This document shows, piece by piece, positions 3,351 through 25,693 of a stretch of DNA of 64,000 nucleotides. The position numbers were made by a program, and so were the translations under genes. Each line of letters begins with the position of its first letter. Position 1 is the first letter of the stretch. Source of the DNA: a virus; the IMG/VR virus record IMGVR_UViG_3300020179_000026, positions 1 through 64,000 of that record; one strand, 5' to 3'. The notes beneath the pieces are model-generated. The model saw only the letters and a program-made list of their open reading frames with translations, ran no database searches and was not told where the DNA came from.

Positions 3351-3598
3351 TGAAAGATTATCTGAAACAAATTGATTTGGAAAAGATTTATGAAGGTACC
3401 ATTCGCAACACCGGTCAGATGAGTGCACCCGATGCAAGCCAGATAAGCCCGGGAATCAACCGGGACAGCATGGCCAGCCAGAACATTTACACACCAAACG
3501 ACTATCGGATTGGTGAAAACGAGGAAGGCGAGAAAGAAACCAAGCTGCGGGAAGCGTTGAAAAAGATCAAAGAGATTTTAAATAATCTTGATCTATGA
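3350..3598 (+). CDS. Hypothetical 82-aa protein
   Basis: An 82-residue protein coupled to both neighbours: its ATG overlaps the upstream stop, and its stop overlaps the ATG of the muramidase gene (ATGA). The N-terminus is amphipathic (DYLKQIDLEKIYEGTIRN), the middle is low-complexity with Ser, Asn and Gln, and the C-terminus is a charged helix (KLREALKKIKEILNNLDL). No recognised domain. Its place in the operon directly before an endolysin candidate suggests a structural or lysis accessory, but this is only context. Confidence 0.6.
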   Translation: MKDYLKQIDLEKIYEGTIRNTGQMSAPDASQISPGINRDSMASQNIYTPNDYRIGENEEGEKETKLREALKKIKEILNNLDL

Positions 3599-4128
3599 AC
3601 CAAATCAAAATATCCCCGAATAAAAGTGCCGAATTTGAAACGGCCATGAAGTTTGTACGGGAAGCAGAAGGTGGATATTACAACCACAAAAATGACCCCG
3701 GTGGGGAAACCATGTATGGGCTGACAAAGCGAGATTATCCTTTGCTGGATATTAAAAATCTTACCCGGGAACAAGCGGACGAAATTTTTTGGCAGGATTA
3801 CTGGCTAAAAAGTGCGGCTCCACAGGTTCCGTTCCCTGCCTATATCAGTTATTTTGACAGTTGTGTAAACACAGGTCGTACCCAAGCCAACAAGTTTCTA
3901 CAAAGATGTGTAGGAGCAACAGCAGACGGTATTGTTGGGCCATATACCCGCAGTCTCATGAGCAAAAAAGATCCAAAAGATTTGGCTTTTGATATAATTG
4001 ATCAACGGCAGACTTTTTATGATAATTTGTGTGAAAAACGCCCTAAGTTGGCTGTTTTCAAAAAAGGTTGGACGAATAGGAACAATAATCTAAGAAAATA
4101 TATAAAAAATTTGTTGGCCAAGGCTTGA
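3595..4128 (+). CDS. GH108-type N-acetylmuramidase (endolysin candidate)
   Basis: A 177-residue protein with the glycoside hydrolase 108 signature: EAEGGY (catalytic Glu at about residue 25) followed by NDPGGETMYGLT. The C-terminal part (about 85-175) has FLQRCVGATADGIVGPYT, typical of the PG_binding_3 domain that accompanies GH108. Family members cut the glycan strands of peptidoglycan. There is no signal peptide, so release would need a holin; a holin-like gene lies at 13252-13461. A Rho-independent terminator at 4175-4202 ends this transcript about 50 bases downstream. Confidence 0.85.
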   Translation: MNQIKISPNKSAEFETAMKFVREAEGGYYNHKNDPGGETMYGLTKRDYPLLDIKNLTREQADEIFWQDYWLKSAAPQVPFPAYISYFDSCVNTGRTQANKFLQRCVGATADGIVGPYTRSLMSKKDPKDLAFDIIDQRQTFYDNLCEKRPKLAVFKKGWTNRNNNLRKYIKNLLAKA

Positions 4129-4174
4129 ATATCTTTGCAAAAAGATAAATATTATTAACAAAAACAACAACGTT

Positions 4175-4202
4175 TTGTAAAGAATCTTCTTTACAATTTT
4201 TT
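4175..4202 (+). terminator. Rho-independent terminator after GH108 gene
   Basis: Inverted repeat TTGTAAAGA / TCTTTACAA with a 4-base loop, followed by six T. It separates the muramidase operon from the signal-peptide gene and overlaps the possible -35 of the next promoter. Confidence 0.75.
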
Positions 4203-4216
4203 GACCCTGATATAAT
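4190..4216 (+). promoter_or_regulatory. Candidate host sigma70 promoter with extended -10
   Basis: TTTACA at 4190-4195, a 15-base spacer, and TATAAT at 4211-4216 preceded by TGA (extended -10, TGnTATAAT). The start codon at 4230 is only 13 bases further on. This is the clearest host-type promoter I found in the window; most other genes carry phage late boxes. Confidence 0.5.
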
Positions 4217-4229
4217 CGGGTCCAGCCAC

Positions 4230-4829
4230 ATGAAAAAAACACTATTAGCCGCAGCTTTGGTCATAGGGGTAGCAAACAGCTTCAGCACTGAAGCTGGCCG
4301 ATGCGTTTTGTCCCAATCTGTGGTTAAACCTAATCTTACCCCCGCTGAATTCAAAACTTTCATGGGAGATGTGAGTAAACTGACCCGCAATTACAGCAGC
4401 GGTCTTTGTGCCAAGTTCACCACGGCCCTGTTGGACAACCTGCACGAGCGAAACGGCAAGGCATTTCCTCAATTGGATTTGCGGGAAGGAAGGATAGTAC
4501 GAGGGCGGAAAGGACGGCAAACCTATCCGGTCACCACTTCAAACAACGGCATATTGTATGCGAAAAACTACAAAAATGTATTTGAAAGCAAACATGATTT
4601 TGTAAAAATAGGCACAAAAGATGTGTTGTCCCTGCCTGAAAACACCATTGTGATTGCGGTTTATCAACCAAAACACAGTCGCAGGCCCGGACATATAGAG
4701 GTATTATTCAAGAAAAACAAACGACTTTATGCAGCATCCGACAAATTGGGGCGTCCTCTTTTTCATCACAAAAATACCTATCGTCAGGTAGACTTTTACT
4801 ATCCTATTCGGGAGGATGGCCAAATATGA
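4230..4829 (+). CDS. Secreted protein, possible Cys/His (papain-like) hydrolase
   Basis: A 199-residue protein with a clear Sec signal peptide: MKK, a hydrophobic core LLAAALVIGVA, and probable cleavage near residues 22-23. The mature part contains GLCAKFT (Cys60) and, about 95 residues later, RPGHIEVLF (His155) followed by YAASD. A helix-borne Cys and a beta-strand His in this spacing resemble NlpC/P60 or CHAP peptidoglycan amidases. The match is weak and I cannot name a family. It sits between a muramidase and a 3D-domain protein, which supports a cell-wall role. It is the only gene here with a host-like promoter, so it may be made early. Its TGA overlaps the next ATG. Confidence 0.55.
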   Translation: MKKTLLAAALVIGVANSFSTEAGRCVLSQSVVKPNLTPAEFKTFMGDVSKLTRNYSSGLCAKFTTALLDNLHERNGKAFPQLDLREGRIVRGRKGRQTYPVTTSNNGILYAKNYKNVFESKHDFVKIGTKDVLSLPENTIVIAVYQPKHSRRPGHIEVLFKKNKRLYAASDKLGRPLFHHKNTYRQVDFYYPIREDGQI

Positions 4830-5305
4830 AAAGAATTATTTTCATATTAATAGCTTTGATAATTTTATATAATATAAGTTTCGTAGGCGTTAAACCTGTT
4901 AAGCCTGTGGGACCTATTATTTCCAAAAAATTGGATAATTTAAGCGGAAAGATTGTTGAACAAGGAATAATTGAAAAGAAAATAAAGGCAAGATTAACTG
5001 TATATTGGGCTAAAGGAGGGGACACCGACAGGGATACGGCCCGCAAAAAAAGCTCATCAGGAACACGTCTTCGTGAAGGGATAAGCGTGGCAGTCGATCC
5101 GCGCCTAATCCCCTTTTATAAGCGTTTATACATACCAAATTTGGGCATCAGGGTGGCTCATGACACCGGCACAGCTGTTAAGCAAAAGAAGGCAAGTGGA
5201 GGTAAACTGCCTGTTATAGACATATTTTTCGAAAAAAAGCAGGATGCTTTGAATTTTGCATATAATAACCCAAAAATAGTCACAGTCAGTGTTTATAAAT
5301 ATTAA
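4826..5305 (+). CDS. Membrane-anchored 3D-domain (double-psi beta-barrel) protein
   Basis: A 159-residue protein with an N-terminal hydrophobic anchor (about residues 3-20) and a 3D domain. The three defining aspartates are visible: AVDPRLIP (Asp91), AHDTGTA (Asp113) and VIDIFFE (Asp132). The 3D fold is found in MltA-type lytic transglycosylases and in Gram-positive resuscitation-promoting and cell-wall enzymes, and is linked to glycan-strand cleavage. It would act in the periplasm, held by its anchor. The same domain recurs, interrupted by an inserted CHAP domain, in the gene at 10382-12181. It is coupled to the upstream secreted-protein gene by ATGA. Confidence 0.75.
   Translation: MKRIIFILIALIILYNISFVGVKPVKPVGPIISKKLDNLSGKIVEQGIIEKKIKARLTVYWAKGGDTDRDTARKKSSSGTRLREGISVAVDPRLIPFYKRLYIPNLGIRVAHDTGTAVKQKKASGGKLPVIDIFFEKKQDALNFAYNNPKIVTVSVYKY
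5296..5301 (+). promoter_or_regulatory. Late-promoter box TATAAATA, 5 nt before GTG 5307
   Basis: The box lies inside the last codons of the 3D-domain gene, five bases before a GTG start. It decides the start of the SleB-type gene. Confidence 0.6.
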
Positions 5306-5306
5306 G

Positions 5307-5840
5307 GTGAGGTTTGAAGATAGAATAAGACAACTATTGTTGGAGGTAACACCAGATCTGCCTCCGCCACCTCCAGCCCTGGTTCAAAAAGCCGAAGCCA
5401 GTATCAAATACAGCGATATTGTGGCTGCAGCTCTGATTGGTGAAGCCGGGGGAGAGGGATATGAAGGCATGCAAGCTGTCATGAATGTGATCATGAACAG
5501 GGTAAAAGGGGGGAATCCGTTCCGGGGTGCGGTTGATGTGGTGCTAAAACCCAAACAATTCAGCTTTTTTGATGATTATAACGCTGGAAGCGTGAAAATG
5601 GGGGACGTTGTAACCAAAGCCATGCAGCATCCCCGATGGGCTATGGCTAAAGAACTGGCCCTTGTAGGCATGCAAGGAAAGCTAGAGGATCTTACTGGAG
5701 GAGCCACTCACTATCATGTAACCAAAGGACCCAGCAAAGTGAAACCTTATTGGAGCAGTCCTCAATTTGGCGGAAAAAACAAGGAAGCTCTAGCGACGAA
5801 CACGATTGGCAGCCACACGTTTTTTAAAAACATTCGCTGA
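5307..5840 (+). CDS. SleB/CwlJ-type cell-wall hydrolase (Hydrolase_2)
   Basis: The frame is open from 5289, but GTG at 5307 is chosen because a TATAAATA box precedes it by 5 bases. The 177-residue product has a proline-rich linker (about 15-24) and a catalytic domain. That domain contains AALIGEAGGEGYEGMQAVMN, with the probable catalytic Glu46, then VIMNRV and PKQFSF (82-87), the classic SleB/CwlJ signature. Family members are lytic transglycosylases or amidases first known from spore germination and also found in Gram-negative bacteria and phages. It would be a second endolysin candidate beside the GH108 enzyme. Its end overlaps the minus-strand gene 5790-6044. Confidence 0.8.
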   Translation: MRFEDRIRQLLLEVTPDLPPPPPALVQKAEASIKYSDIVAAALIGEAGGEGYEGMQAVMNVIMNRVKGGNPFRGAVDVVLKPKQFSFFDDYNAGSVKMGDVVTKAMQHPRWAMAKELALVGMQGKLEDLTGGATHYHVTKGPSKVKPYWSSPQFGGKNKEALATNTIGSHTFFKNIR

Positions 5841-6044
5841 TTTTTTTTTCTTTTTTGCAGGAATTGCAAACAAAATCTGCATGCTGCCCGGATTGCTTGT
5901 GTCCCCTTTAAATCCGCTTGGATGTGTTGCTGTTTTGCCCCAATCAATGTTTGTTCCTTGAAAAGTCTTGGGAACTTTAGCCATGGGAAAAATATTAAAA
6001 TCTTCCGTGAGTTTTTTAACAATCTTGTCAAAACATGTCGTCAT
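5790..6044 (-). CDS. Hypothetical 84-aa basic protein coupled to fibre gene
   Basis: The ATG overlaps the TGA of the collar-fibre gene (ATGA), the coupling pattern used across this genome, so translation is likely. The protein has a GTNIDWGKTATHPSGFKGD stretch and a very basic C-terminus (KKKKKSANVFKKR). Its last 51 bases are antisense to the end of the SleB-type gene. No function recognised; it could be a fibre-associated or assembly protein. Confidence 0.55.
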   Translation of the reverse strand: MTTCFDKIVKKLTEDFNIFPMAKVPKTFQGTNIDWGKTATHPSGFKGDTSNPGSMQILFAIPAKKKKKSANVFKKRVAANRVRR

Positions 6045-7195
6045 GATGATGCTTTGATCAGCTTGCGAACAACTGCACTGGGCTGAATGGTGTTGTGGCC
6101 ATCAGCTGCACCAGATCCTACGGTACCAGTTGCATCCACGGTACCTTGACTATAGGTATAGGAATAGTTTCCGTTTGAATTCTGAATAGTTAAACCTCCC
6201 ACATAACCTATTCCATTCGGATTAAGAGAACCAGGTTGGCGGAATTCAGCTGTAACATCAAATTCACATTTACCTTCAGCTTCAGTCAATACGTGATTTT
6301 CTTCACCTCCGGTGCTTCCCACTGCATTTGCTATGGTGGCGGTTCCTGTTCCGCCTGAACCCATGGTTACACGTCTGCGAAGATCCGGAAGATTGAATGT
6401 TGTGCTTCCGTCCCCAGCACCCCATGTGGTTCCCAAAACTGTGAAAAGTTGTGCATAGGTTGTGCGGGAAACAGGGGATCCATCGCATTCCAGATAAGTT
6501 GCAGGAGGTGCGCCAGATCCGGCCCAATCAATCACCGTTCCAATCGGATTGGTGGTGACCAAACCTGCCAAAAGAACCTGCAGATCCGAGGGTGTGAGAT
6601 CTTGAACTGCACCACCGGTATTCAAACGACCTTTGATGGTGTTGGCCGGGGAAGATACCAATTTTGCATTTGTGATACTGTTGTCTGCAACAATCATGCC
6701 TTGACTACCATCATAAGTCAGGCTGCTACCCAACTTTGTTTTTAAGATCGTATTGGTTCCTATCCGTTCCAGTCCGGAACCTATGCTTATGCTCGCCAAT
6801 TTGCTAGCCAAAAGACCGTTATCTGCCACACGAACAACGTTAGCCACCTGAATGAGTGTATTGTTATCGATTGTGAATTGACTGCCAAAAGGAGCAAATG
6901 CGCTTACTTTAGCAAAGTCTGTTCCGGTCAGCATGTATGTAAGATTTGTACCTGTATCAAAAACAAAATCTCCACTGGCCGGGGCAAGACCTGTGCTAAG
7001 ATTGGTATTGTTTCCACTAAATGTGGCAAATCCAAGATTCTTTGTTCCTACTGGAATACCTGCCAAACTTCCGGTGCCCACATAAAGACGTTGGCTATCC
7101 GTACAATAACCTGGTTCACCTGGTTCCAGTGTAACATTTTTTCTTTCAGTTTCCGTACCCTGACGGAAAATGATCTTTTTGATCTCGGCTGCCAT
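6041..7195 (-). CDS. Tail fibre protein with phage Collar domain
   Basis: A 384-residue fibre protein. The N-terminus has IIFRQGTETERKNVTLEPGEPGY, a motif common at the base of short tail-fibre or tip proteins. The middle is beta-rich and repetitive. A Collar domain (Pfam Tail_Collar) occupies about 215-280, visible as IGTVIDWAGSGAPPATYLEC followed by DGSPVSR and STTFNLPDLRRRV. The C-terminus ends with a GxxxxHNTIQPSAVVRKLIKA strand typical of receptor-binding tips. It probably contacts the host surface. A TAAATA box lies 6 bases before the ATG. Confidence 0.8.
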   Translation of the reverse strand: MAAEIKKIIFRQGTETERKNVTLEPGEPGYCTDSQRLYVGTGSLAGIPVGTKNLGFATFSGNNTNLSTGLAPASGDFVFDTGTNLTYMLTGTDFAKVSAFAPFGSQFTIDNNTLIQVANVVRVADNGLLASKLASISIGSGLERIGTNTILKTKLGSSLTYDGSQGMIVADNSITNAKLVSSPANTIKGRLNTGGAVQDLTPSDLQVLLAGLVTTNPIGTVIDWAGSGAPPATYLECDGSPVSRTTYAQLFTVLGTTWGAGDGSTTFNLPDLRRRVTMGSGGTGTATIANAVGSTGGEENHVLTEAEGKCEFDVTAEFRQPGSLNPNGIGYVGGLTIQNSNGNYSYTYSQGTVDATGTVGSGAADGHNTIQPSAVVRKLIKASS

Positions 7196-7201
7196 TATTA
7201 T

Positions 7202-7207
7202 TATTTA
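7202..7207 (-). promoter_or_regulatory. Late-promoter box, 6 nt before ATG 7195
   Basis: TTAAATAAATA on the minus strand; the second TAAATA is six bases from the fibre start codon. No Shine-Dalgarno is present. Confidence 0.55.
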
Positions 7208-7249
7208 TTTAATATATTGTTTTCTACAATTATTTTAAAAATATTATGA

Positions 7250-7255
7250 TAAATA
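7250..7255 (+). promoter_or_regulatory. Late-promoter box GATAAATA, 6 nt before ATG 7262
   Basis: TAAATA, six bases, ATG. Divergent from the fibre promoter about 45 bases away. Confidence 0.55.
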
Positions 7256-7261
7256 ACTTAT

Positions 7262-7495
7262 ATGGTTAAAAAGGCTTATTCCGTGGTTGTGGATGGCGTA
7301 AACAGCCTGCGGGTTTTTGATGCAAATACAGGCACAACCGTAAGATCCCTGAAACTGCAAGAAACCTTACATTCCAGCCCAGTGGTGGTGGGTGACCGGG
7401 TCACGGTCATTGTGCAAAACAGTTCGGGTCATCGCAAAGGCATCATTTTTAAACTGCCTGGTCTTTCTCAAGTTTTTTCATTTCCGGTAGCTTGA
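7262..7495 (+). CDS. Hypothetical 77-aa beta-strand protein
   Basis: A small, strand-rich protein: YSVVVDGVNSLRVFDANTGT, then SSPVVVGDRVTVIVQ and GIIFKLPG. The pattern resembles one or two blades of a PQQ- or WD-type propeller, but it is too short for a complete propeller on its own. It might be an oligomeric head or tail decoration; this is speculation. A late box lies 6 bases before the ATG. It forms a two-gene + strand island between the fibre and spike genes. Confidence 0.6.
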   Translation: MVKKAYSVVVDGVNSLRVFDANTGTTVRSLKLQETLHSSPVVVGDRVTVIVQNSSGHRKGIIFKLPGLSQVFSFPVA

Positions 7496-7503
7496 AAAAC
7501 TTT

Positions 7504-7525
7504 GTGTGTACCTTACGATACACAC
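7504..7525 (+). promoter_or_regulatory. Hairpin abutting start codon 7526
   Basis: Perfect 7-bp inverted repeat GTGTGTA / TACACAC with an 8-base loop, ending immediately before the ATG. It lies in the 30-base gap between two genes and would sit where a ribosome-binding site normally lies. Confidence 0.45.
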
Positions 7526-8029
7526 ATGACAACACTTACATTTAACGACACTGAAAAACCTGCCGATCTGGAAAAATTCCAGACAATCACCTATCCAACT
7601 TTCTTTTTTGGTTTTGCCATAAGAAGCTTATACGATCAAAAACGTTTAAAAATTAAAAATGAATTCAACCCGCAATATATTGTTCACAAATACGGAACCA
7701 AGCCAGAGGAAATCATGTTTCTTTATGGCATTACCGAACCCGTGTCCAATGACGTGTTGCCCTACATTTATCCTTTAAAAAACAATCCTCAAATGAATCA
7801 CGAACAATATGAAGCGGTGTTAAGACCTTTGGATGTGGAATGCAACGACTGTTATTTGTTTTTGGGTAAAAATCTTTATCCGGTAAATTCGTTCTATGCT
7901 CACAGATTTTTTACAAAATCAAATTTTAAAAATATTTCAAACTATTCTGAAATTCTTGAACGAGATGTGGAATTGCCATTGCATCACACAATTGCACCTT
8001 TCCACCTGTTTTTGCTTACTAATTATTGA
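7526..8029 (+). CDS. Hypothetical 167-aa protein
   Basis: The frame can open at a TTG (7502), but that lies inside a hairpin; the ATG at 7526 directly after the hairpin is preferred. The product is aromatic-rich and mixed alpha/beta, with no signal peptide. Cys residues occur in VECNDCY. No family recognised. Its stop overlaps the end of the convergent spike gene by 7 bases. The late box of the upstream gene 7262 probably serves both. Confidence 0.6.
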   Translation: MTTLTFNDTEKPADLEKFQTITYPTFFFGFAIRSLYDQKRLKIKNEFNPQYIVHKYGTKPEEIMFLYGITEPVSNDVLPYIYPLKNNPQMNHEQYEAVLRPLDVECNDCYLFLGKNLYPVNSFYAHRFFTKSNFKNISNYSEILERDVELPLHHTIAPFHLFLLTNY

Positions 8030-10380
8030 CCACCAACGACCGGATCATTTGGGGGATTGCTGCCCTTGATGTTGTAAGCCATGTTTTGAGGTTCTGGAAC
8101 CACTCGATCCGTGTTGTTGCAAGCCTGACCAACATTACGAACATCCTTATTTTCCGAAAGAAGATTAAGGGGAAGATTTTTAAACAAATGGCTGTGACTG
8201 TATGTGAATAAACAATTGTCGTCTGCTGTACCATTTCCGGGTTTTCCTCCAGCTGGTACACGACTATACACTTTTGTCCAATTACCGCATACATCTGGAA
8301 CAAAATCACCCGGGCAGGGGCTAACATATCCTATAACCAATTTTGACATATTATTGCTTTTACCATATACAAAACTTTTTTCAGTTTCCTGGATTTCAAC
8401 CGGGGCAGTAATGTGATTTATCGTTAGTTCTCCTTCAATGTGCGCTCCACCACCGACAACAAGGTTTCTGCTTACCCCTAAACTTGAATCCACCATGACC
8501 TGTTCATAATTGCGCTGACGCAACACGAGAATGTCACTGGTGATAACTGTTCGGTTTCCTCCATCAATATTCAATTCGTACTGAGCTCCGATGTTGGTTT
8601 GTTGACCGGCAATATTGGTTATGGTTCCGCTCATTTCAATCGGACCCAGTGTTTTTATATTGATTCCTCCTGATCCTACCTGAAGAGTATACCGATTACA
8701 GGCATTAACGGTATAATTCCCCCCGGGAAGATCATCTACATGAACAGGCTCGATCAATGGGCTTGGTTTTTGGTTTTCGAATACACCAAGCTCCCCTACC
8801 TGAACTTTATAATTGTAAATTTTACCCTCCGCATCAATCCGTATGCTTCCAAAATCATTCATGACCTGACCAATCATGTCAAATTTATGTTTGGGTATTT
8901 CTGTTACCAAACTTCCTCCTGCTCCCATATTTTCCTCTATTTTCGAAAATTCAACAATTTTGTCCTTGTATAATTGTTCCAGCTTTTTCTTTTCAGGATT
9001 TTCTTCCCATTTACCATCCATGCTGCTGGGGCTAAGTTTTTGACCTTTACAAACGGGACATTGCGGAGGAGGAGGAAATGCTATCAGTTTGGCTGCCGGT
9101 TGTTTTCCTTGAGGATCCACTGTTTCATATTTGTCCACACCATTGCTGCTAAAAGTAACCACCGGAATGATTACTTGGTTAAATTTGTTGTTTACTGCAT
9201 AGTATTTCCGGTCTTTGGAACAAACAGGACAAGGTCCGGGCTTTCCTTTTTGCTTTTGATTGGTACTACTGACACGGTTAGGATCCCCGTCCTTTTTCTT
9301 GGTTCGATCAATTTCAAACAATTGTTTAAGATCCGCAATAGGATCCATCAATGTTTTCCATTGCTGTTGATATTGAGGATCTTGTTCTCCCACCTTAAAA
9401 TAATAATTTCCTTTTACCACGATATCCAAATCACCTCCAACATACAGGCTATTATTACCTTTTACTGTTGTGAATTTGTCCGCCAAAACAAGCTGTTGGT
9501 CGTTTTTTACGGATAATCTGCTTGTGGTTGCATTATTGAATTCCAAAAAAGATCCGGAATAATGGCTAAGTTTCAATACTTCTTTTGTGTCTGTGTTTAC
9601 AAATTCAATAGTTCCTCCTTTTTGAGAAAACACGGATTTATTTCGGTATGTTTCAGCATCTATTTGCTGAACATTTAAAGTTGTATCGTTTTTGTCAAAA
9701 TTTTCGTAGGCACCCGGATAATCTTCCGCCACACCATAGTCATCCTGATAAATTCCATTCCAAGCGGTTTGGCCAAAACTGGTGGCCCAATAAACCGGAC
9801 GCATGGGGTTTCCATCATAAAAGAAAACCCAAAGGTGTGCTCCCACGTTGGGAACACAGAAAACACCCTTGGCCCGGTTACTATAACAGCTGGGAACATA
9901 ACCATATGCATTTGGATTGACATGAGCCACGTTATTTGCCGGAGCAGAATTAAAAGCATCGCTCAAAGGAACAGTAGACCGTTCATAAACGTTTCCAGGT
10001 TTTTCACCTATGCCATCCGTGTTTTGACTAAATGCCGTGGTTTCAAAATTTTCTTGCGGTTTGCAGGTATCGATCAATGAGCTATCGCTGATGGATCCAA
10101 ATTTTTCTGTGGCATTATATCTTCCGCTGGCAGCCCCACCGAAAAGAGGCATGGCACAATCCGCCCAGGGTAATATCTTTTTAAGATCCTCCAATATGTC
10201 ATTGATGCTGCTATTCAAGTTTTGACCAATAAAATTAAATTCCTTATCAACTTGAACTTCGTTCCATTTGTTATAAACCGTGGGAGTCACGTGTGGAACA
10301 AACACTTTGACACGACCTCGTTGTTCCGGGTCGTTGTTTTGAACCACTATGCCCAGATAATGACCATCATATCTTTTCAT
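8023..10380 (-). CDS. 5: Baseplate spike / hub protein, gp5-like, with Cys4 insert
   Basis: A 785-residue protein opening with a gp5/VgrG-type OB fold: GHYLGIVVQNNDPEQRGRVK at about 6-25, and VGAHLWVFFYDGNPMRPVYW at about 179-198. A beta-helix-like region follows (LKLSHYSGSFLEF, GGDLDIVVKGNYY) and resumes after residue 505. Between them, at about 335-505, is an insert with CPVC at 384-387 and 441-444, a likely zinc site. No T4 lysozyme domain is seen between OB fold and helix; murein cleavage may be supplied by the adjacent 3D/CHAP protein. The C-terminus (SHSHLF) recalls cyanophage gp5. It follows the 3D/CHAP gene after 1 base. Confidence 0.75.
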   Translation of the reverse strand: MKRYDGHYLGIVVQNNDPEQRGRVKVFVPHVTPTVYNKWNEVQVDKEFNFIGQNLNSSINDILEDLKKILPWADCAMPLFGGAASGRYNATEKFGSISDSSLIDTCKPQENFETTAFSQNTDGIGEKPGNVYERSTVPLSDAFNSAPANNVAHVNPNAYGYVPSCYSNRAKGVFCVPNVGAHLWVFFYDGNPMRPVYWATSFGQTAWNGIYQDDYGVAEDYPGAYENFDKNDTTLNVQQIDAETYRNKSVFSQKGGTIEFVNTDTKEVLKLSHYSGSFLEFNNATTSRLSVKNDQQLVLADKFTTVKGNNSLYVGGDLDIVVKGNYYFKVGEQDPQYQQQWKTLMDPIADLKQLFEIDRTKKKDGDPNRVSSTNQKQKGKPGPCPVCSKDRKYYAVNNKFNQVIIPVVTFSSNGVDKYETVDPQGKQPAAKLIAFPPPPQCPVCKGQKLSPSSMDGKWEENPEKKKLEQLYKDKIVEFSKIEENMGAGGSLVTEIPKHKFDMIGQVMNDFGSIRIDAEGKIYNYKVQVGELGVFENQKPSPLIEPVHVDDLPGGNYTVNACNRYTLQVGSGGINIKTLGPIEMSGTITNIAGQQTNIGAQYELNIDGGNRTVITSDILVLRQRNYEQVMVDSSLGVSRNLVVGGGAHIEGELTINHITAPVEIQETEKSFVYGKSNNMSKLVIGYVSPCPGDFVPDVCGNWTKVYSRVPAGGKPGNGTADDNCLFTYSHSHLFKNLPLNLLSENKDVRNVGQACNNTDRVVPEPQNMAYNIKGSNPPNDPVVGGQ

Positions 10381-10381
10381 A

Positions 10382-12181
10382 TCATGCGTTTCCTGCTGCC
10401 TTCAACAATTGGTCTGCAGAAGGATTTTTCAATTGTTTATAACCTTCGGGATAGTATGCCTGAATAAATTTACCGGAACCTTTCTTTCCCAATTCCACGG
10501 TTCTTGCATAAACTCCGCTTTTAGGAGGTTGAACGGTGGCACTTTGGGTTCCGCCTCCGGACAGTACATTTTTTTCAAAATTCAATCGTGATTTCTCCGT
10601 ATCAAAATATATATCAACTGTTAAGGTTTTTACCTCTTGTTGAGCTTGAGAATTCTGGTCCTTTAGTCGAATAACATTTCTTACAGAGCTGCCATTTTTC
10701 CTATTCTTTCGGAAAACACCCTGACCCTCCCGATCCATGTCCCGACCACTGGTATTGCCTTCAATGGTTGTGAATGAACCGTCTGAATTCACAGTTTCAA
10801 CAATACCGGTATGACTGTATTTGTATGTGATAATATCACCAGGTTGCAGAGGTTTTTCACCATATCTAAATATTTCTGCTTTGCCGCTTTTTGCAAATTC
10901 TTCCATGCCATATGCTTTCATGGTGGCAGGAGCAGGTACATTTGTTCCAGCAGTTGCTTGTTGTGTCACGGCACTGACAAATCCTGCACACCACGGTTGG
11001 CCCTGAGATCCACCTCCTGCCTGGAAAAACGGATTTAATTGTGCTCCAGTATTTGTGCTTCCCCTTTCTGTCACCCCCAGATAACTTTGAGCGGCTTGCA
11101 CTGTTCTTTGACCAACTGTGCTGCCTTTGTTAAAATCAACATTACTTGGGTAATATGATTGAGTTCCGTCCCCTTTTACAATTCCCCGTTTTCTGGCAGC
11201 AGTTTGTTCCACAACCGCTGTTCCGGTATCCATAGCAACCCGTGTTCCAATGGCCGGATTGTCAAAAACAATTTTGCTTCCATAAGGAATTTGACTTGGA
11301 TCCACCGCACAACTTACACCTTCAATAAGATTGTTTTTTCCGGTTGAACTGGTTTTGGCTTGGGACCACTCATCACCGCCTGCTCCTAATTTTTCTTCAG
11401 CACTATATGTGGTAATCACCGCGTTAATTCTAAAATCGTTTGGGGATACTGCGTTGGGAACCACCGGACCTGCTTTGACCTGAACATTGTCTCCGCCCGT
11501 AAATCCTTTTTGATAACTTTGAGCATTTTGTTTGACCTGGGTGTTAAGATTTAAGGTTGCATTGGTGGATCCTTTTTGAATAAAATTACCAAAGGAGGCA
11601 GGATTTGTTGCGAGATCCCGGGCTGTTTTTGGTGAAAATTGGGAAGGAACGCTGGTTTGAATGCTGTTGAGCAGGGAACTGACATTTGAAACATTTTGTA
11701 TGCCTTGCAAATTTCCCAAAACCTGCTGACGAGCAAAATCAAAATTACCTGCATTGAATGATGCAAATTTGGAAAAAGTGTTGGAAAATGTGCTTGCGAT
11801 ATCAACTTCACCTCCGGCAAAATTAGGTATTTGAAAATTATTTCCCAAATAAGACTGAACCAAACCTTGAAGTTGATTGGTTATGTTCAATCCCTGGGTC
11901 ACGCTCGCTATGGTTTGATCCAAAACCTGGGGAGATGGTAATTGTGGTAAAAAATCTGTTATGGGCAAATAATCCTTAATATTTCCAAATTGCATGCCAA
12001 AATTGCTCATGTTTGAAAATTGAGCAGGAAGTTGAACTGAACCAAAAATGGTTTCTGGATTAAGCTGGCTCAATTGTTTAGACAAATCATCCAGGGAAGG
12101 AACCGACAGGATCTTTTCAAGCTGGGAAAGATTCATTTCCGGAGCTAATTTTGTCAATAATGCAGCAGGAATTTCAGGCAT
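10382..12181 (-). CDS. Tail-associated murein enzyme: 3D domain interrupted by CHAP
   Basis: A 599-residue protein. Residues 1-245 are a Leu/Gln/Asn-rich helical region. A 3D domain starts at about 253 with Asp294 (AVDPSQIP) and Asp318 (AMDTGTA). It breaks off near 333 and resumes at about 518 with the third aspartate, Asp522 (VDIYFDTEKSRLNF). The break is filled by a CHAP/NlpC-type amidase, about 357-507, with catalytic candidates Cys398 (QPWCAGF) and His457 (YSHTGIV). Two cell-wall activities are thus nested in one chain. Location next to the gp5-like gene suggests it rides on the tail tip and opens the cell wall during DNA entry. A late box lies 11 bases before the ATG. Confidence 0.7.
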   Translation of the reverse strand: MPEIPAALLTKLAPEMNLSQLEKILSVPSLDDLSKQLSQLNPETIFGSVQLPAQFSNMSNFGMQFGNIKDYLPITDFLPQLPSPQVLDQTIASVTQGLNITNQLQGLVQSYLGNNFQIPNFAGGEVDIASTFSNTFSKFASFNAGNFDFARQQVLGNLQGIQNVSNVSSLLNSIQTSVPSQFSPKTARDLATNPASFGNFIQKGSTNATLNLNTQVKQNAQSYQKGFTGGDNVQVKAGPVVPNAVSPNDFRINAVITTYSAEEKLGAGGDEWSQAKTSSTGKNNLIEGVSCAVDPSQIPYGSKIVFDNPAIGTRVAMDTGTAVVEQTAARKRGIVKGDGTQSYYPSNVDFNKGSTVGQRTVQAAQSYLGVTERGSTNTGAQLNPFFQAGGGSQGQPWCAGFVSAVTQQATAGTNVPAPATMKAYGMEEFAKSGKAEIFRYGEKPLQPGDIITYKYSHTGIVETVNSDGSFTTIEGNTSGRDMDREGQGVFRKNRKNGSSVRNVIRLKDQNSQAQQEVKTLTVDIYFDTEKSRLNFEKNVLSGGGTQSATVQPPKSGVYARTVELGKKGSGKFIQAYYPEGYKQLKNPSADQLLKAAGNA

Positions 12182-12192
12182 AATACTAGAAA

Positions 12193-12198
12193 TATTTA
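12193..12198 (-). promoter_or_regulatory. Late-promoter box, 11 nt before ATG 12181
   Basis: CATAAATATTTC on the minus strand. On the plus strand the same bases precede a 17-codon frame (12198-12251) ahead of the kinase gene. Confidence 0.4.
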
Positions 12199-12256
12199 TG
12201 AAACAAAACCCTTTTGCAATATTGAAAAACCCTTATGGTTTAGTAACATAAAACAG

Positions 12257-12814
12257 TTGAAAATAGCATTTTCCGGCCCTCAAGCATCTGGCAAAAGCAC
12301 ACTGATACGACACTTGCTGGATAATTTCCTTAATAAGGAGGATTATCTTTTTATCAAAGGAGGTGCCCGCAAACTGAAAGATCATGGATTTGAAATCAAT
12401 GAAAAAGGTACGGATCTTTCGCAAGTTTTGCTTTTCAATTCATATATTGATGATATTGTAGTGAAGCCAAAAGAAAAAGCATCCAAACATTACATTTATG
12501 ATCGGTGGTTGTTGGATGGTGTTGTTTACTGTGATTGGAGCGTGAGTATCGGCAAAAATTCTCCGTGGGTGTATGATTACGGTCAACTCATGCTGAAAAT
12601 GTTACACACCGAAATAGATGTTCTTTTTTATTGTGATACAGAAGGTGTGCCGGTTGAGAATGATGATTACCGGAATACTGATGAAGAATACCGGACAGTG
12701 ATACAGGCTATTTTTGAAAACTATCTGAAAGAACCAATAGTAAAATTTAAAAAAGTTGTGAGATTATCAGGATCTTTGAAGGATAGAACTTCAAAAGTTT
12801 TAAGTGAGCTTTAG
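12257..12814 (+). CDS. P-loop AAA/NadR-like kinase
   Basis: A 185-residue protein with a Walker A loop GPQASGKST (7-15) and YIYDRWLLDGVVY (about 76-88). It resembles the AAA_28 / NadR-type nucleotide or cofactor kinases common in phages. The only usable start in frame is TTG at 12257; no ATG lies upstream before a stop. A 17-codon frame (12198-12251) ends 5 bases earlier and could couple translation to this TTG. There is no late box in phase. Its stop overlaps the end of the convergent minus gene 12811. Likely role: phosphorylating a nucleotide or nicotinamide metabolite; substrate unknown. Confidence 0.7.
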   Translation: MKIAFSGPQASGKSTLIRHLLDNFLNKEDYLFIKGGARKLKDHGFEINEKGTDLSQVLLFNSYIDDIVVKPKEKASKHYIYDRWLLDGVVYCDWSVSIGKNSPWVYDYGQLMLKMLHTEIDVLFYCDTEGVPVENDDYRNTDEEYRTVIQAIFENYLKEPIVKFKKVVRLSGSLKDRTSKVLSEL

Positions 12815-13227
12815 AGATAGCCCAGAAGACTTAGACGACGAATATTAGGAGAAACAGACTCATCACCATTATTTGTCAACGTTTGCAATGCAGGGGAGAG
12901 GTGCACCATCCCAGTGTTTGCAGTAAACAGAGAACTTGTACGGTTCTTGTAAATGATAGCAAATTGTACACCTTGATAAGCACTATCAACACGCAATCTG
13001 ATGCTATTCGGTCCTACCACACCAGAAGCAACAGTATTAGCAGATAGTGTTACTAATTGACCTGTTAATGCAACTGGAGCATTATTGAATGCAACAGATT
13101 CTACATTTGACCCAACAATGTGAAGTGCAACTCCTGCAGTACTCAAACTGTAATTATTGGTTGCTGTCATATCCGGATTAAAATTATCCGGATCTAAAAC
13201 TTGATTGGGGAAACTTAGTATTGCCAT
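12811..13227 (-). CDS. Hypothetical 138-aa structural protein
   Basis: A beta-rich protein (VALHIVGSNVESVAF, VALTGQLVTLSANTV, IRLRVDSAYQGVQFAIIYKN) with Ala, Val, Ser and Asn dominating and no charged clusters. This composition fits an exported virion surface or decoration protein. It lies downstream of the capsid, scaffold and holin-like genes. A TAAATA box is 6 bases before the ATG, arguing for late expression. No family recognised. Confidence 0.65.
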   Translation of the reverse strand: MAILSFPNQVLDPDNFNPDMTATNNYSLSTAGVALHIVGSNVESVAFNNAPVALTGQLVTLSANTVASGVVGPNSIRLRVDSAYQGVQFAIIYKNRTSSLFTANTGMVHLSPALQTLTNNGDESVSPNIRRLSLLGYL

Positions 13228-19408: not shown

Positions 19409-21166
19409 TTATGTGCAGAGAATGCTGATTATAAATGCTCCGTCACCCATTCCTATCATGTCTTCACCTGCCTGAATTGTTATAATATTACAATCTGTTT
19501 TGAACAATGGTATGGGCAAAGGCGTATCTCCCTGAATAACACCAAGAATGGCTAATTGTTGCAAATATAATTCATAAAGACAACGATTGATGGTATCACT
19601 TTGGTAATTTTCATTATTTCCAATAAAATTATTACAAGTAACTTCCAAATCAGGATTGTATAAAACCGAATCATCAGTATAGATATTTTTTATAAATTTA
19701 TAACTTTCAAAAATATCCTGATTGTTCATTTGAATATCAATTGCAGATAAAGGAAGAAACGGATCCAAATCAAATTTGAATCGCTGCCGCGCCTGATTCA
19801 AAAGAATATAATTGTTGTTGATCAACTTGCTTATGCTCTTGTTGAAAACAAAACTCTGTGAATATTCATCATCTTCCACCTGTGTTTGATCAGGGGGGAA
19901 TATTTCAAAATCATAAGAATACAGCATGTTGTTTGTTGTGTTAGGTTCTAAAAATCTGAAAAACTGTCCGCCCGAAAGGTTTGTTCCTAAAGTTGTCAGG
20001 GAGAACAACAAAATGTCGTCCACGTTTTCATTCAAATAAATATCTATTGCCTTCAAGTTATAATTTTTTATATTATCTTTGACAAAATTATATTTTCCAA
20101 TTTTTGTTGTAGGTCGGGAAAAATATTTTTTGTATAGTGATTTGTTTGTTAAAATGTAAAAAATATTTTCATTTTGTTTGCTGAAAACATATTTTTCCGA
20201 ATATTCTCCGGATAAAGTTTCTTCGGAAAAATCTATGATTTTATATGTGGAATCTGAAATATTAACTATAATGATCTTGTTTTCTTTGGCCAAAAGAAAT
20301 ATTTCAGTTAAATTTGTGAACTGATTTTTATGAAGCTTAATGTCGATAATTGTATAGGCAGAAAATAACTTTTTAAGTATAAGCGAATATCTCCAATTCA
20401 ATTGATCATCAAAAAATTTCAGACAGGAATTTCCACTGTCCATCACAACTAATGTGGAAAGGTATAAATCAGCAGCAAAAGGATTATTGAATTCATTGTT
20501 GTCGTACCTTCCGCCCTGACCCCCTATGATTTTTTTGACATAACGTTTGTTGAATTTTACGTTCTCACCTTCAATAAAACCCTCAACATCATAAAGAATT
20601 ACTTGATTGTTGAAAGAATCCACAACATACAAATCATTTCCTTCAAGAATTAGATCTGTTATATTTCCGTTTCTCAACTGTGTTTGTTCATCCACATAAA
20701 TGCTGGAAAGAATTATATTAAAAGTGCTATACTCTTTATTGAATTTTGTAAAAAATATAGTTTGTCCCTGTGAAGCTATCAGCAATCGATTTTCGTTATC
20801 GGTTGTTGGTGCTACCACAAAATCCTGAATATAGTCCAAAGCAGACAATCCCACATTTAAAAAAGACGAGCCGCTCGTATTGGGTGTTGTGGTAAAATTC
20901 CATTTGATTTGGTTTTGTCCCGAAGGAACACCCAGCCATTGTGTATAAGAATATGGAATTTGATTTGTGAGAATTTTTGTTTTTGAGTAAAGATACAAAA
21001 TGTTTTTATACAAATAATTCAACCGAATATTCAAAGTTCCTGCCACACTAAGTTCATTTACAGGAATCTGAATTTTATCAAAATGATAAGGCAATTCGAT
21101 AAAATCTCCCACCACTCGATCAAAAATTAAATTTTCTTTTTGAAATAATTTAAAAATATTTTTCAT
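19409..21166 (-). CDS. Beta-propeller-like fibre/adhesion protein
   Basis: A 585-residue protein; the start is ATG 21166, one base past the upstream stop. Repeated strand units such as DLILEGNDLYVVDSFNNQVI and STLVVMDSGNSCLKFFDDQL have the NHL/six-bladed propeller pattern (hydrophobic strand, VxDSxNxxI). N- and C-terminal segments are beta-rich and of unknown fold. The C-terminus has QAGEDMIGMGDGAFIISIL. It is the last gene of a long adhesion operon. The open frame continues upstream through the 15-bp repeats, but that extension is the wrong frame of the neighbour. Confidence 0.65.
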   Translation of the reverse strand: MKNIFKLFQKENLIFDRVVGDFIELPYHFDKIQIPVNELSVAGTLNIRLNYLYKNILYLYSKTKILTNQIPYSYTQWLGVPSGQNQIKWNFTTTPNTSGSSFLNVGLSALDYIQDFVVAPTTDNENRLLIASQGQTIFFTKFNKEYSTFNIILSSIYVDEQTQLRNGNITDLILEGNDLYVVDSFNNQVILYDVEGFIEGENVKFNKRYVKKIIGGQGGRYDNNEFNNPFAADLYLSTLVVMDSGNSCLKFFDDQLNWRYSLILKKLFSAYTIIDIKLHKNQFTNLTEIFLLAKENKIIIVNISDSTYKIIDFSEETLSGEYSEKYVFSKQNENIFYILTNKSLYKKYFSRPTTKIGKYNFVKDNIKNYNLKAIDIYLNENVDDILLFSLTTLGTNLSGGQFFRFLEPNTTNNMLYSYDFEIFPPDQTQVEDDEYSQSFVFNKSISKLINNNYILLNQARQRFKFDLDPFLPLSAIDIQMNNQDIFESYKFIKNIYTDDSVLYNPDLEVTCNNFIGNNENYQSDTINRCLYELYLQQLAILGVIQGDTPLPIPLFKTDCNIITIQAGEDMIGMGDGAFIISILCT

Positions 21167-21167
21167 A

Positions 21168-24100
21168 TTAATAACCACCTGAATAACCACCTGATCCACT
21201 TCCACCCGATCCGCTTCCACCCGATCCGCTTCCACCCGATCCGCTTCCACCTGATCCGCTTCCACCTGATCCACTTCCACCCGATCCGCTTCCACCTGAT
21301 CCGCTTCCACCTGATCCACTTCCACCCGATCCGCTTCCACCTGATCCGCTTCCACCTGATCCACTTCCACCCGATCCGCTTCCACCTGATCCGCTTCCAC
21401 CTGATCCGCTTCCACCCGATCCTCCGGATGAAGCTCCAGTGTTGTTGCCACTAGTTTCAGATTGAGTTTCAGTCGTGCTTATTGACTGATCTGTTTCGTT
21501 AAAACTTATGTCTTTTTCCATATTTTCCTTCCAAATAAAATTTCGTAATTCACTCATGTAAGGAAGATTGTTCAATAATATGGTATTTAATTGTTTTTGA
21601 ATATACGCTCGGGCATCTTTATTGGTAATTTTTGAATTGTTTATGGTTATGTCTATTGCAGGAGACTTGTGATACGGAATTCTTTGCCGAAAAAACTTTT
21701 CAATTGTATCTGCATAGTTTCTGCTTTCAGAAGGTAAATTAAACAACAAAGGCTGAATATTTTTTGAATATTTTTGAATGAACCTGATCGTGTAATAATC
21801 CAAAGGTTTTGTGAAGAAAAATACGTCTCGAATATCTAAGTTTTTTATCGTGAATGCATTCTTTATTTTTAACTTGTCATACAAATTAATACCAGCAAAA
21901 TATTGAGTGGACCCGTATGTAAAAGGTTCGTTAAAAATTTGACTCAATGTATATTTTCCCGGACTAAAAGTTTTAGAATCCACTATCTGTCCGTTTACAA
22001 ATAAAACACATTTTCCGGCTACAGAATCGAATGACAAAGCAAATTCATGATAACCAAATTTTAACTGGGTAGCATCAAACGAAAGATTCAATTCTTCAGA
22101 AGCTTCTGAAGTATAAACATTTGGCAGGTTAATTCTTATACTTATTCCATTTTCTGGGTAGGTTTCATTTAAAACTTCATGATTATACACTGAATTTGTT
22201 GTGGGTACATTAAAGCAAGCGGAAACCGGATAATTCAAAACAATTACATCTTCATTAGTCACCAAAGTTTTTGTGTCTATAAGTGCAACCGATCCGGTCG
22301 AATTAGTGCTTGAACAAATTGCATATACTGTTGAAATGTTTTCCCCGGCAATATAAGTGGAACTAAAATCACTGGCTATCACGTTTGTTGCACTCACAGG
22401 AAGTCTGAATGTGTTAATCACAAATCCTGCAGAATTGTGTACGTAGCATGTTGAATTATTATCAAAAATAAAGAAATTTAAATTGTTGTCTATAGTAAAG
22501 GTTGTGATAGTACCACTGCTATTATAAAATCTTGTTTCAATATTGTTTAAACTGACATTCCATTCTTTTATTTCTCCATTAGATTTGTAGAATATTCTGA
22601 CTTGTTCTCTTATTTCTGAATCATTACCATCCAAGATATAAACGGCGTTGCCTATTTTTTTCAAAGATTTTGCACTGACCATGGGTGTTGTTGAATAGTA
22701 TCTGGTCAAATTATTAAATCCAAATTGTTCGGTTCTGCGATTATATGAAACAAAATCACCGGCATGTGAAACCAAGAAATATGTGCTTGTTTCGTCAGAA
22801 TGGTGTGAAATTGCAGCGGAAAGAGGATTATACTGCGAACTATCCAGTATGGTATTCTGTGAATTTATTTGAAACAATTCTCCTGTGTTGTCTAAAACAA
22901 AATAATCATCCAAACTTTCTATTTGAACCACATCCAAAAGAGAATTATTGAACTGTATTGTATCCAATAACGTCCATTCAGAATTGTAAATTTTTAAAAT
23001 ATTACCATCTATGAAACGAACAAATGGGGTTACAGCTCGGTCTGAATAAACACCGATTCCTGTGTTTTTATAATTGCCCACAATTTCGTGTCCAAATGAT
23101 TGATTGAAATCTTTGCTTCCTATTGTGAAGAAAAATGTGAATCTGTTATCGAAACTTTTGCTGTTGATAGTTTCATTTATTGCATATTCATTACCTGAAA
23201 ATTTATAAACACCATTTTCTGCAGCCAAAATGGTTCCATTGGTTTGAATATATTGGTCTATTCCATTGAATAATATAGAAGAATCATTTTTCAAAATATA
23301 TTCATTAATGTCTTGTTTGCCTATCCGGTAGTAAGCATAAAGAGTGTAAGGTTCAAATGTCATCTGACTTTTTACATCAAATATTTCTGTGGGAACTGAC
23401 ACCTGGTTTGTTATGCAATCATAATAACTTTCGTATGCAAAAACATCGTTTGCAGAAAACGCCATCTGTCGAGTGGTTTTGTTTGGAATAAAATATCTAT
23501 CATACCATATTGGTCGTGTATTGGGATTGGAAGAACCGCTTAACCAAGAGCAAATCCAAGTTCCGTTTATTTCTCCCCGAGGATTTCCGAAGTTACTGGT
23601 ATCTTTATAATTTGCATTTTTCTTCCAAATTTTATCTGAAAATTCCGGTGTATTTGAATAAATCGCACCACATTCAGCCAAATTACTGTCATTTATGTTA
23701 ATAAAATTATATTCTCCCATCTCTAAAGGAGTATGAAAATATGTCAGTTTGCCCGGTTTAAATTTGTATTCATTAATTTTACTTTGATAATTTTGAGAAA
23801 ATCTTAGATTTCCTTTTTCTTGAGGTGCTCCTGTGTTTAAGGAAACATATGATCTTACATCTTTGTTTTCTCCCAAAGAAATATTCTCTGATTTGGGAGT
23901 TAGATTATTTTTTTCTGTGACAAAATTATAAGGAACCTTTTCAGATGAAATATTATTGAATTCACTGTGAAACACTATTTGATTTTTTACCACAGAAGAA
24001 TCTGTGCATTCCACATTTAAATTATTTGTATCAAATTCTTTTTTATAAGAAAACCAATGAGATGAAAGAGAATCAATTAAATTGAATTTTATAGGAAGAA

Positions 24101-24797
24101 CATTAAATGTATTTTCGATTGTTAATTGAATATCGCTACCGGTCAGAGCAACAAACCCCAAAGAAGAGAATTGTTTTACCAATGTGTAAACATTGTTATT
24201 TTTTCTGTAAAATAAAGCTATACAATTATTAACATCATCAAAAATGTATTCAAATGCTTGATGATACAAACTGTTGTTGTCATAGATATCAGAAGTTGAA
24301 GAAAGAAGATAAACGCGATTGGTAAGAAAATTTACATTTAGATAATATTTTGAATTATAATAATCATGTGAGATACGACAAAGGTTATTTGGAATAAAAT
24401 CTATTTCAAAATAATTATCTGGATTTTTTTCTGATAAAAAATTATTGGTGGTTATATCCAAATAATTCGAAGACAACGATGGAACTATTTTCCAATATCT
24501 TTGTGCCGTATCTTTAATATTCAACAAACCATTACTAAGGGTAGTAACAAATCCATTTCCATTTTCAGTTGGATTCGTTAAAGAAAAAATCTTGGAAAAG
24601 TTTACAGATGATGTTAAAGCAAAACTTGAATAGTTGTTATTTTTTTGGTCAAGAGTTTTTACAAATAATTCGGGATATGAAAAATTTATGCAAGAATCAC
24701 TGAATATCTTCTGTTGTTTTGTCTGTAAATCATTGTCCTGAACATAGAAAACCTCCATGTTAGACCAGTTATTTTCGTCAAAAATCTTTACAGGCAT
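21168..24797 (-). CDS. Large fibre protein with propeller, lectin-like and Gly-Ser repeat tail
   Basis: A 1209-residue protein. ATG 24797 is chosen because a TAAATA box sits 5 bases before it; the frame also opens at TTG 24830 within the upstream gene. The middle has propeller-like strands (DVVQIESLDDYFVLDNTGEL, KKIGNAVYILDGND). A following segment looks like a jelly-roll lectin/laminin-G unit (QLKFGYHEFALSFDSVAGKC then VLFVNGQIVDSK). The C-terminus is about 16 copies of the pentapeptide SGSGG encoded by a 15-bp minisatellite, ending GGYSGGY. Probable role: surface recognition, with the flexible tail as a linker or tether. Partner unknown. Confidence 0.65.
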   Translation of the reverse strand: MPVKIFDENNWSNMEVFYVQDNDLQTKQQKIFSDSCINFSYPELFVKTLDQKNNNYSSFALTSSVNFSKIFSLTNPTENGNGFVTTLSNGLLNIKDTAQRYWKIVPSLSSNYLDITTNNFLSEKNPDNYFEIDFIPNNLCRISHDYYNSKYYLNVNFLTNRVYLLSSTSDIYDNNSLYHQAFEYIFDDVNNCIALFYRKNNNVYTLVKQFSSLGFVALTGSDIQLTIENTFNVLPIKFNLIDSLSSHWFSYKKEFDTNNLNVECTDSSVVKNQIVFHSEFNNISSEKVPYNFVTEKNNLTPKSENISLGENKDVRSYVSLNTGAPQEKGNLRFSQNYQSKINEYKFKPGKLTYFHTPLEMGEYNFININDSNLAECGAIYSNTPEFSDKIWKKNANYKDTSNFGNPRGEINGTWICSWLSGSSNPNTRPIWYDRYFIPNKTTRQMAFSANDVFAYESYYDCITNQVSVPTEIFDVKSQMTFEPYTLYAYYRIGKQDINEYILKNDSSILFNGIDQYIQTNGTILAAENGVYKFSGNEYAINETINSKSFDNRFTFFFTIGSKDFNQSFGHEIVGNYKNTGIGVYSDRAVTPFVRFIDGNILKIYNSEWTLLDTIQFNNSLLDVVQIESLDDYFVLDNTGELFQINSQNTILDSSQYNPLSAAISHHSDETSTYFLVSHAGDFVSYNRRTEQFGFNNLTRYYSTTPMVSAKSLKKIGNAVYILDGNDSEIREQVRIFYKSNGEIKEWNVSLNNIETRFYNSSGTITTFTIDNNLNFFIFDNNSTCYVHNSAGFVINTFRLPVSATNVIASDFSSTYIAGENISTVYAICSSTNSTGSVALIDTKTLVTNEDVIVLNYPVSACFNVPTTNSVYNHEVLNETYPENGISIRINLPNVYTSEASEELNLSFDATQLKFGYHEFALSFDSVAGKCVLFVNGQIVDSKTFSPGKYTLSQIFNEPFTYGSTQYFAGINLYDKLKIKNAFTIKNLDIRDVFFFTKPLDYYTIRFIQKYSKNIQPLLFNLPSESRNYADTIEKFFRQRIPYHKSPAIDITINNSKITNKDARAYIQKQLNTILLNNLPYMSELRNFIWKENMEKDISFNETDQSISTTETQSETSGNNTGASSGGSGGSGSGGSGSGGSGSGGSGSGGSGSGGSGSGGSGSGGSGSGGSGSGGSGSGGSGSGGSGSGGSGSGGSGSGGSGSGGYSGGY
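21191..21423 (-). repeat. 15-bp minisatellite encoding (SGSGG)n
   Basis: About 16 tandem copies of a 15-base unit (on +: ctgatccacttccac with variants). Variants at two positions recur in a 45-base higher-order pattern (ccgatccg, ctgatccg, ctgatcca) over units 4-15. That pattern points to duplication of three-unit blocks. Copy-number change keeps the reading frame. Confidence 0.9.
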
Positions 24798-24802
24798 AAA
24801 AA

Positions 24803-24808
24803 TATTTA
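24803..24808 (-). promoter_or_regulatory. Late-promoter box, 5 nt before ATG 24797
   Basis: TTAATAAATATTTTTATG on the minus strand, inside the end of the upstream gene. Confidence 0.6.
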
Positions 24809-25693
24809 TTAATATATTGGGGCAACACAACTAATTGGAATCAAATATGTTGGATTGAATACATTAACACCTATCAACAATTCATTGTTTACAATCGTTA
24901 GAAGTGCACAATATGCACTCAAAGGAGGTATAACCGGATAAATTGGTTCTGATGTAATTGCTGGAAGAATCGTTATTACAAATTCAAGAGGAGGAAGTTC
25001 CGGTCTTACTACCAAAGGTGCTGTAAAAAGATAATCGCCCGTACCTAAAACACCATAATGAATGTCTAATAGATTGGATCCTTGTAGAGTCAGCAAGTAA
25101 TTTCTTGCATCATCCAGCAATTGATAATTTAATATTTTATAATCTAAAATAGGATTAATTATGCTTGGTTGGGTGCAACTTAATTGCACAACAAAAACAT
25201 CCACATAAAAATTTTCTCGATAACAGCTAATACTCGCTGTATACGAATCTAAGAAATTTTTTGTTGTTTCATAAACACCAGAAACTGTTGTTAGTGTAGT
25301 GATGTTTGGATTGACCAAATTAACATTTGTTTGAACAAAATTATTATTCAGATTTGCTGAAATTTTTTGAATTTTGTAAAGAGTTTGTTTAACTCCAGAC
25401 AAAGAAAAAGTTATGATAACAGGCGCTGTGAACAAAAATTCATTTTGCTTATATTGATGAATAACTATATTTTCAGAAGCTGAAAAATTAGACGTATACG
25501 TATAAGCAGATAGAGGAAGGGCGGAAAGAGGTGGGTATGCACTTAGGGATGAAAAGGTGCCTGAACAAAGTGTGTCGGTATATGTGAAATCATAACCAAA
25601 AATAGGATCTTTATACACATATCCGTCAATTGTTCCATAGCTGATAAAATTTTCGTCAGCACTGAGATAAATTATGGCCGTATTGTATCTCAT
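24809..25693 (-). CDS. Hypothetical 294-aa fibre-operon protein
   Basis: A 294-residue, almost wholly beta-strand protein rich in Ser, Thr, Tyr, Leu and Ile with few charges. Two segments are alike: LFTAPVIITFSL and LFTAPLVVRPEL, which suggests an internal duplication. Its C-terminal region (PPLSAYCALLTIVNNELLIGVN) closely resembles the C-terminus of the upstream protein (VPLSSFCALVEIVDNSIPLYSIN). The two adjacent genes therefore share a terminal domain, possibly an assembly or attachment module. The start codon follows the upstream stop by 1 base. No named family. Confidence 0.6.
   Translation of the reverse strand: MRYNTAIIYLSADENFISYGTIDGYVYKDPIFGYDFTYTDTLCSGTFSSLSAYPPLSALPLSAYTYTSNFSASENIVIHQYKQNEFLFTAPVIITFSLSGVKQTLYKIQKISANLNNNFVQTNVNLVNPNITTLTTVSGVYETTKNFLDSYTASISCYRENFYVDVFVVQLSCTQPSIINPILDYKILNYQLLDDARNYLLTLQGSNLLDIHYGVLGTGDYLFTAPLVVRPELPPLEFVITILPAITSEPIYPVIPPLSAYCALLTIVNNELLIGVNVFNPTYLIPISCVAPIY

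Follow-up and report, generated by a model that had tools for sequence, protein, structure and literature searches.

An exchangeable CHAP or L,D-transpeptidase-like domain interrupts the 3D domain of a candidate tail-associated murein hydrolase of T4-like phages

Murein hydrolase domains are usually described as strings of units arranged end to end. Of the three 3D-type aspartates of YuiC (D129, D151, and D162), D162, which corresponds to D308 of MltA, is catalytic; MltA has an inserted domain which touches the substrate via V161 and Q162 and is located before D261, and non-orthologous displacement of catalytic domains has been described for RpfB and YabE (PMC4499186). The signature of Tlde1a comprises an Arg-X5-His motif and (S/T)xGC residues (PMC9638812). 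A search of open-access papers retrieved no report of a split or nested 3D domain.

The window analyzed here, a stretch of 64,000 nucleotides (positions 1 to 64,000 of IMG/VR record IMGVR_UViG_3300020179_000026), belongs to an uncultured T4-like phage of bacteria, as indicated by its capsid, sheath, terminase, and baseplate wedge genes. The region 10382..12181 contains many stops on the plus strand, and on the minus strand encodes a protein of 599 amino acids consisting of an N-terminal region, the first part of a 3D domain, a CHAP insert, the last part of the 3D domain, and a C-terminal tail. The N-terminal region (residues 1–249, 11435..12181, minus strand), which according to the alignment is kept in 10 of 10 relatives, did not match any family in Pfam and PHROG searches, and no homologue among known tail proteins was detected; it may have a structural or anchoring role. 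Homology of this region to small gp5-adjacent genes of distant relatives was considered as well, but is not claimed because the hhalign probability was below 5%, the likeness being confined to a short SxxQIRD-like motif. The C-terminal tail (residues 561–599, 10385..10501, minus strand) is kept in all relatives.

The first part of the 3D domain, delimited with Pfam and a stand-alone 3D profile, comprises residues 250–333 (11183..11434, minus strand) with Thr257, Asp294, and Asp318; its last part, delimited with the same stand-alone profile and the alignment, comprises residues 514–560 (10502..10642, minus strand). A preliminary description of this DNA had correctly located Asp294 (AVDP), Asp318 (AMDTG), Cys398 (PWCAG), and His457 (YSHTG), but had placed the third aspartate at residue 522. 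The residue is Asp523 of the VDIYF motif (10613..10615, minus strand), equivalent to D162 of YuiC and D308 of MltA (PMC4499186). An uninterrupted stand-alone 3D protein encoded in the same window (4826..5305, plus strand) served as comparison copy, and its aspartates are indeed residues 91, 113, and 132. Since the second and third aspartates are 205 residues apart in the nested protein, as compared to 19 in the stand-alone protein, the former contains 186 extra residues, in agreement with the approximately 185 estimated before. The three aspartates D294, D318, and D523 occur in the order AxD, DTG, [VI]D[VIL][YF]F that is typical of the 3D/MltA-YuiC family, and all 10 relatives retain them together with Thr257, which from its spacing presumably is the equivalent of T91 of YuiC.

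The Pfam 3D profile (PF06725) matches residues 290–325 of the nested protein with columns 2–42 of 72 only (E = 7e-4), a match that straddles the whole-protein cut-off, being just under it in one search and just over it in another. In the nested copies of four related viral records searched, the match likewise starts at column 2 and breaks off at columns 39–43, while the stand-alone 3D protein matches columns 2–57. The 3D domains of Bacillota, 80 copies from 48 of the 61 genomes searched, were all uninterrupted, reaching columns 70–72. When seven stand-alone 3D proteins from these phages were combined into a profile, it aligned with two pieces of the nested protein in co-linear order, namely, columns 4–76 at residues 252–330 (E about 6e-15) and columns 78–98 at residues 518–538. 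Because the second piece is weak when taken alone (E 0.67, a score that unrelated ORFs reach as well), its support derives from register, motif rarity, and conservation rather than from the score; the motif [VIL]D[VIL][YF]F, present in 10 of 10 relatives, has a chance expectation of about 0.001 per 90 residues outside the loci of this family. AlphaFold models of the nested region, calculated from shallow alignments, had mean pLDDT values of 32 (CHAP type) and 46 (the second insert type described below). The proposal that a CHAP domain lies inside a 3D domain holds for the order of the parts, which follows from the sequence, the relatives, and the DNA breakpoints, whereas completion of a closed double-psi beta barrel by the VDIYF strand is putative. 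Searching the PDB sequences with the full protein, its nested 3D part, and both types of insert did not yield a believable match, and the stand-alone 3D copy matched YuiC and no other PDB entry. The family search in bacterial genomes retrieved one distant 3D protein only and therefore gave no host lead.

The insert between the two 3D parts comprises residues 334–513 (10643..11182, minus strand). Within it, residues 392–476 (10754..11008, minus strand) match Pfam CHAP (PF05257) with an E value of 7.9e-11 and 42.7 bits, compared with a cut-off of 26, identifying the domain as a member of this family. The catalytic set C398, H457, E474, and N476 is kept in those relatives that carry CHAP. PHROG endolysin families match residues 358–514, and the nearest relative of the insert in a cultured phage is a stand-alone CHAP protein of Microcystis phage Mae-JY24.

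Scans of IMG/VR retrieved nine further contigs with the nested gene, resulting in a total of ten including the window, with L003/L004 and L099/L100 as near-duplicates. The recovery of ten contigs from many metagenomes rules out an assembly artefact. The gene adjoins gp5, which as far as the contig reaches is located directly downstream, in all ten. Five of them (the window and L001–L004) have the CHAP insert, and in the other five (L005, L006, L099, L100, and L182) the same slot is occupied by an L,D-transpeptidase/Tlde1-like domain unrelated to CHAP. Both types of insert begin after a DTG...RGI segment and stop before KTxT[VI]D[VI]YF or its equivalent. The matches of the second type to YkuD (22.5 vs 23.4 bits) and Tlde1 (20.7 vs 30.1 bits) are marginal, both being below the curated cut-offs. 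R449, H455, T461, G463, and C464 of L005 match R115, H121, S128, G130, and C131 of Tlde1a. In the TEGC sequence of L005, Glu replaces the His of the catalytic (S/T)HGC motif, and H455 is present. A Foldseek search with the AlphaFold model of the L,D-type nested region (mean pLDDT 46) gave no significant match. In a different phage, L191:4001-4372 encodes a domain related to the L,D type (43% identity) as part of a protein of 1115 amino acids; judging from the neighbouring genes, this may be an internal virion protein.

A single sequence does not reveal the insert as an exchangeable cassette, which becomes visible only by comparison of relatives. L005 is the nearest relative of the window by gp5 (96% identity; 98% for the capsid protein), and the N-terminal region, the 3D parts, and the C-terminal tail of the two nested proteins are 76–95% identical, as opposed to 17–19% for the inserts, which is the level of unrelated sequences. 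The last 3D piece is 95% identical despite the unrelated inserts. At the DNA level, homology of the window to L005/L015 covers positions 3969-10642 and 11181-12807 and is absent exactly at 10643-11180, i.e., the insert, stopping at both of its ends; homology to the CHAP-type contigs L019 and L027 is continuous, without a break. A second exchanged spot may be the homology gap at 12808-13215, which includes most of a small gene (12811-13227) and likewise distinguishes the window from the L005 contig.

In the gp5 tree the window groups with L005, fully supported when protein sequences are used, and a single clade of CHAP carriers was rejected (p-AU 0.0001 for amino acids, 0.002 for DNA). To explain the backbone tree, the insert type must have changed twice or more; here, the DNA data reject monophyly of the CHAP carriers (p = 0.02) and the protein data do not (p = 0.17). 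Between L005 and L006, 66 of the 77 differences are located in codons 330-512, that is, in the insert (12% vs 0.9% elsewhere; Fisher p = 4e-24), indicating that here the cassette alone was exchanged. As the whole nested gene is more variable than its neighbours, part of the exchange may also include flanking sequence. The dN/dS ratios of 0.04–0.25 for backbone and insert, obtained from CHAP-type pairs where not saturated, indicate purifying selection on all parts of the protein. The DNA break at the insert and the clustering of differences between L005 and L006 indicate that the slot swaps murein-enzyme cassettes independently of the backbone, and we regard the nested, exchangeable architecture as real, unusual, and well supported by the sequences compared.

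The nested gene ends directly before gp5 (8023..10380, minus strand; gp5 start at 10380), which codes for a baseplate hub/spike protein without a detected lysozyme domain. The sequence ATAAATA, resembling the late promoters of T4, is located 12–18 nt upstream of the start codon (12193..12199, minus strand); it also precedes the gene in the CHAP-type relatives and in L005 and L006, and TAAATA is found in L099, L100, and L182. In the window, ATAAATA precedes 12 of 50 gene starts, with only 33 copies in both strands (128 kb), so that T4-like late promoters are probably used. This motif, the adjacency to gp5, and the structural neighbours support late, structural-type expression of the nested gene.

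The preliminary description had also suggested that the nested enzyme may replace a missing gp5 lysozyme. The gp5 of the window indeed lacks a lysozyme match, but so do 33 of 33 sampled relatives (about 40–46% identity), which like the window protein contain an OB domain and no lysozyme in Pfam searches, and whose gene neighbours mostly are small, probably helical proteins without an enzyme match. Since a lysozyme-free gp5 is usual in this group, the nested enzyme is unnecessary as an explanation, and the specific replacement idea, being weakly supported, was set aside. In the gp5 of the window, the beta-helix part contains two CPVC pairs and the OB fold is matched in two stretches apart from each other, which suggests that this protein, too, contains insertions.

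Apart from the nested enzyme, a wall-enzyme cluster (GH108, stand-alone 3D, Hydrolase_2) is found at 3595-5840, giving this one phage an extensive murein-cutting repertoire. Between the GH108 and stand-alone 3D genes, positions 4230-4829 encode a protein with a signal-peptide-like start, SSGLC and RPGHIEVL motifs, and no Pfam match, possibly a secreted Cys-His wall enzyme. Elsewhere in the window, two neighbouring ORFs overlap in a repeat tract at 21168-21451, which they read in different frames: the ORF 21168-24830 ends in GSGGSG repeats, and the ORF 19409-21451, with a possibly misassigned GTG start, begins with VEADQVEADRV repeats.

As to function, the preliminary description had proposed a nested enzyme with two activities. 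Catalytic residues are kept in both parts, which makes an enzyme with a glycan-cutting activity outside and a peptide-cutting activity inside plausible, both activities being predicted from sequence. Insertion at the active-site side of the barrel could disturb it, and it is conceivable, albeit rather unlikely, that the 3D part no longer cuts glycan and instead is a scaffold or wall-binding barrel displaying a swappable CHAP or L,D-type domain as the sole active part. Such a role would fit with the insert breaking the loop next to the catalytic strand and being the part that is exchanged; the conservation of three Asp and Thr in 10 of 10 relatives, the purifying selection on the 3D parts, and the catalytic function of the third Asp in YuiC argue against it. 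We consider it very improbable that the barrel is incomplete, with VDIYF a chance motif and CHAP following a truncated 3D remnant. The weak score of the second 3D piece alone and the pLDDT of 32 for the nested region count in favour of this reading, but the piece is in exact register, its motif is kept in 10 of 10 relatives at a chance of about 0.001 per 90 residues, and the 95% identity between the window and L005 persists across unrelated inserts.

The CHAP matches to endolysin families, together with the stand-alone CHAP protein as nearest cultured-phage relative of the insert, might point to a second endolysin acting in lysis at the end of infection rather than to a virion protein. This appears improbable, because the gene is located in a late structural block beside gp5, apart from the GH108/Hydrolase_2/stand-alone 3D cluster at 3.6–5.8 kb, and because the protein has a large conserved N-terminal region and no signal peptide evident in its sequence. 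The best explanation, which we hold to be reasonably probable, is a murein hydrolase belonging to the tail baseplate of the virion, with an exchangeable enzyme nested in its 3D barrel; order and exchange of the parts are read from the sequences, and closure of the barrel, activities, virion location, and timing are putative. The C-terminal half of this candidate hydrolase would form a glycan-strand-cutting barrel of the MltA/YuiC type. With the third Asp being catalytic in YuiC and MltA, the cassette is placed between the second and third Asp, directly before the catalytic strand, and this loop would hold a complete second murein enzyme cutting peptide stems, CHAP here and the L,D-type domain in relatives. 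Homologous recombination in the conserved 3D flanks might swap the cassette while the backbone stays. The protein would be made as a late gene product together with gp5, and upon tail contraction would open the wall locally by joint glycan and peptide cleavage. We tentatively propose, as a possibility somewhat short of an even chance, that T4-like phages use the conserved, glycan-cutting 3D barrel as a recombining slot dedicated to cargo: its active-site loop would take up interchangeable peptide-cutting enzymes, which phages would trade with one another irrespective of the remaining gene, perhaps to suit the wall chemistry of their hosts.

The arrangement is significant in that a whole enzyme sits inside another, at the loop preceding a catalytic residue, and that the inner one is swapped between near-identical phages. 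If both parts work, phages could retool wall entry with the tail interface unchanged, the relatives would provide natural matched pairs of one backbone with two cassettes for analyzing the coupling of glycan and peptide cleavage, and the slot would be a site already used in nature for building wall enzymes with two activities.

Compared with the 3D/MltA family (E. coli MltA, B. subtilis YuiC), the nested protein shares the three-Asp signature and a partial Pfam 3D match, but its 3D domain is interrupted between the second and the catalytic third Asp. MltA also has an inserted domain; however, V161 and Q162 precede D261, so that its insertion site differs from the one observed here (PMC4499186). 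Residues 358–514 of the insert match much of a small endolysin of the CHAP type (PHROG 21825, 21357, 9589; Mae-JY24 CHAP protein), whereas here CHAP is embedded in another enzyme domain and encoded by a gene of the baseplate region. The insert of the L,D-type relatives shares Arg-X5-His, (S/T)xGC, and weak Pfam matches with the L,D-transpeptidase fold of Tlde1 and YkuD, but differs by having Glu at the His position of SHGC, by scores below the cut-offs, and by being nested in a phage 3D domain. Like the tail lysozyme gp5 of T4, the nested protein is a putative murein enzyme encoded at the tail spike; unlike it, it is the product of a separate gene beside a gp5 without a Pfam-detected enzyme, and its enzyme domains are different and exchangeable. 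As in RpfB and YabE, a catalytic murein domain has been swapped for an unrelated one with the remainder kept, but in these proteins the domains are arranged end to end and the displacement occurred between phyla, whereas here the domain is nested and the exchange took place among near-identical phages.
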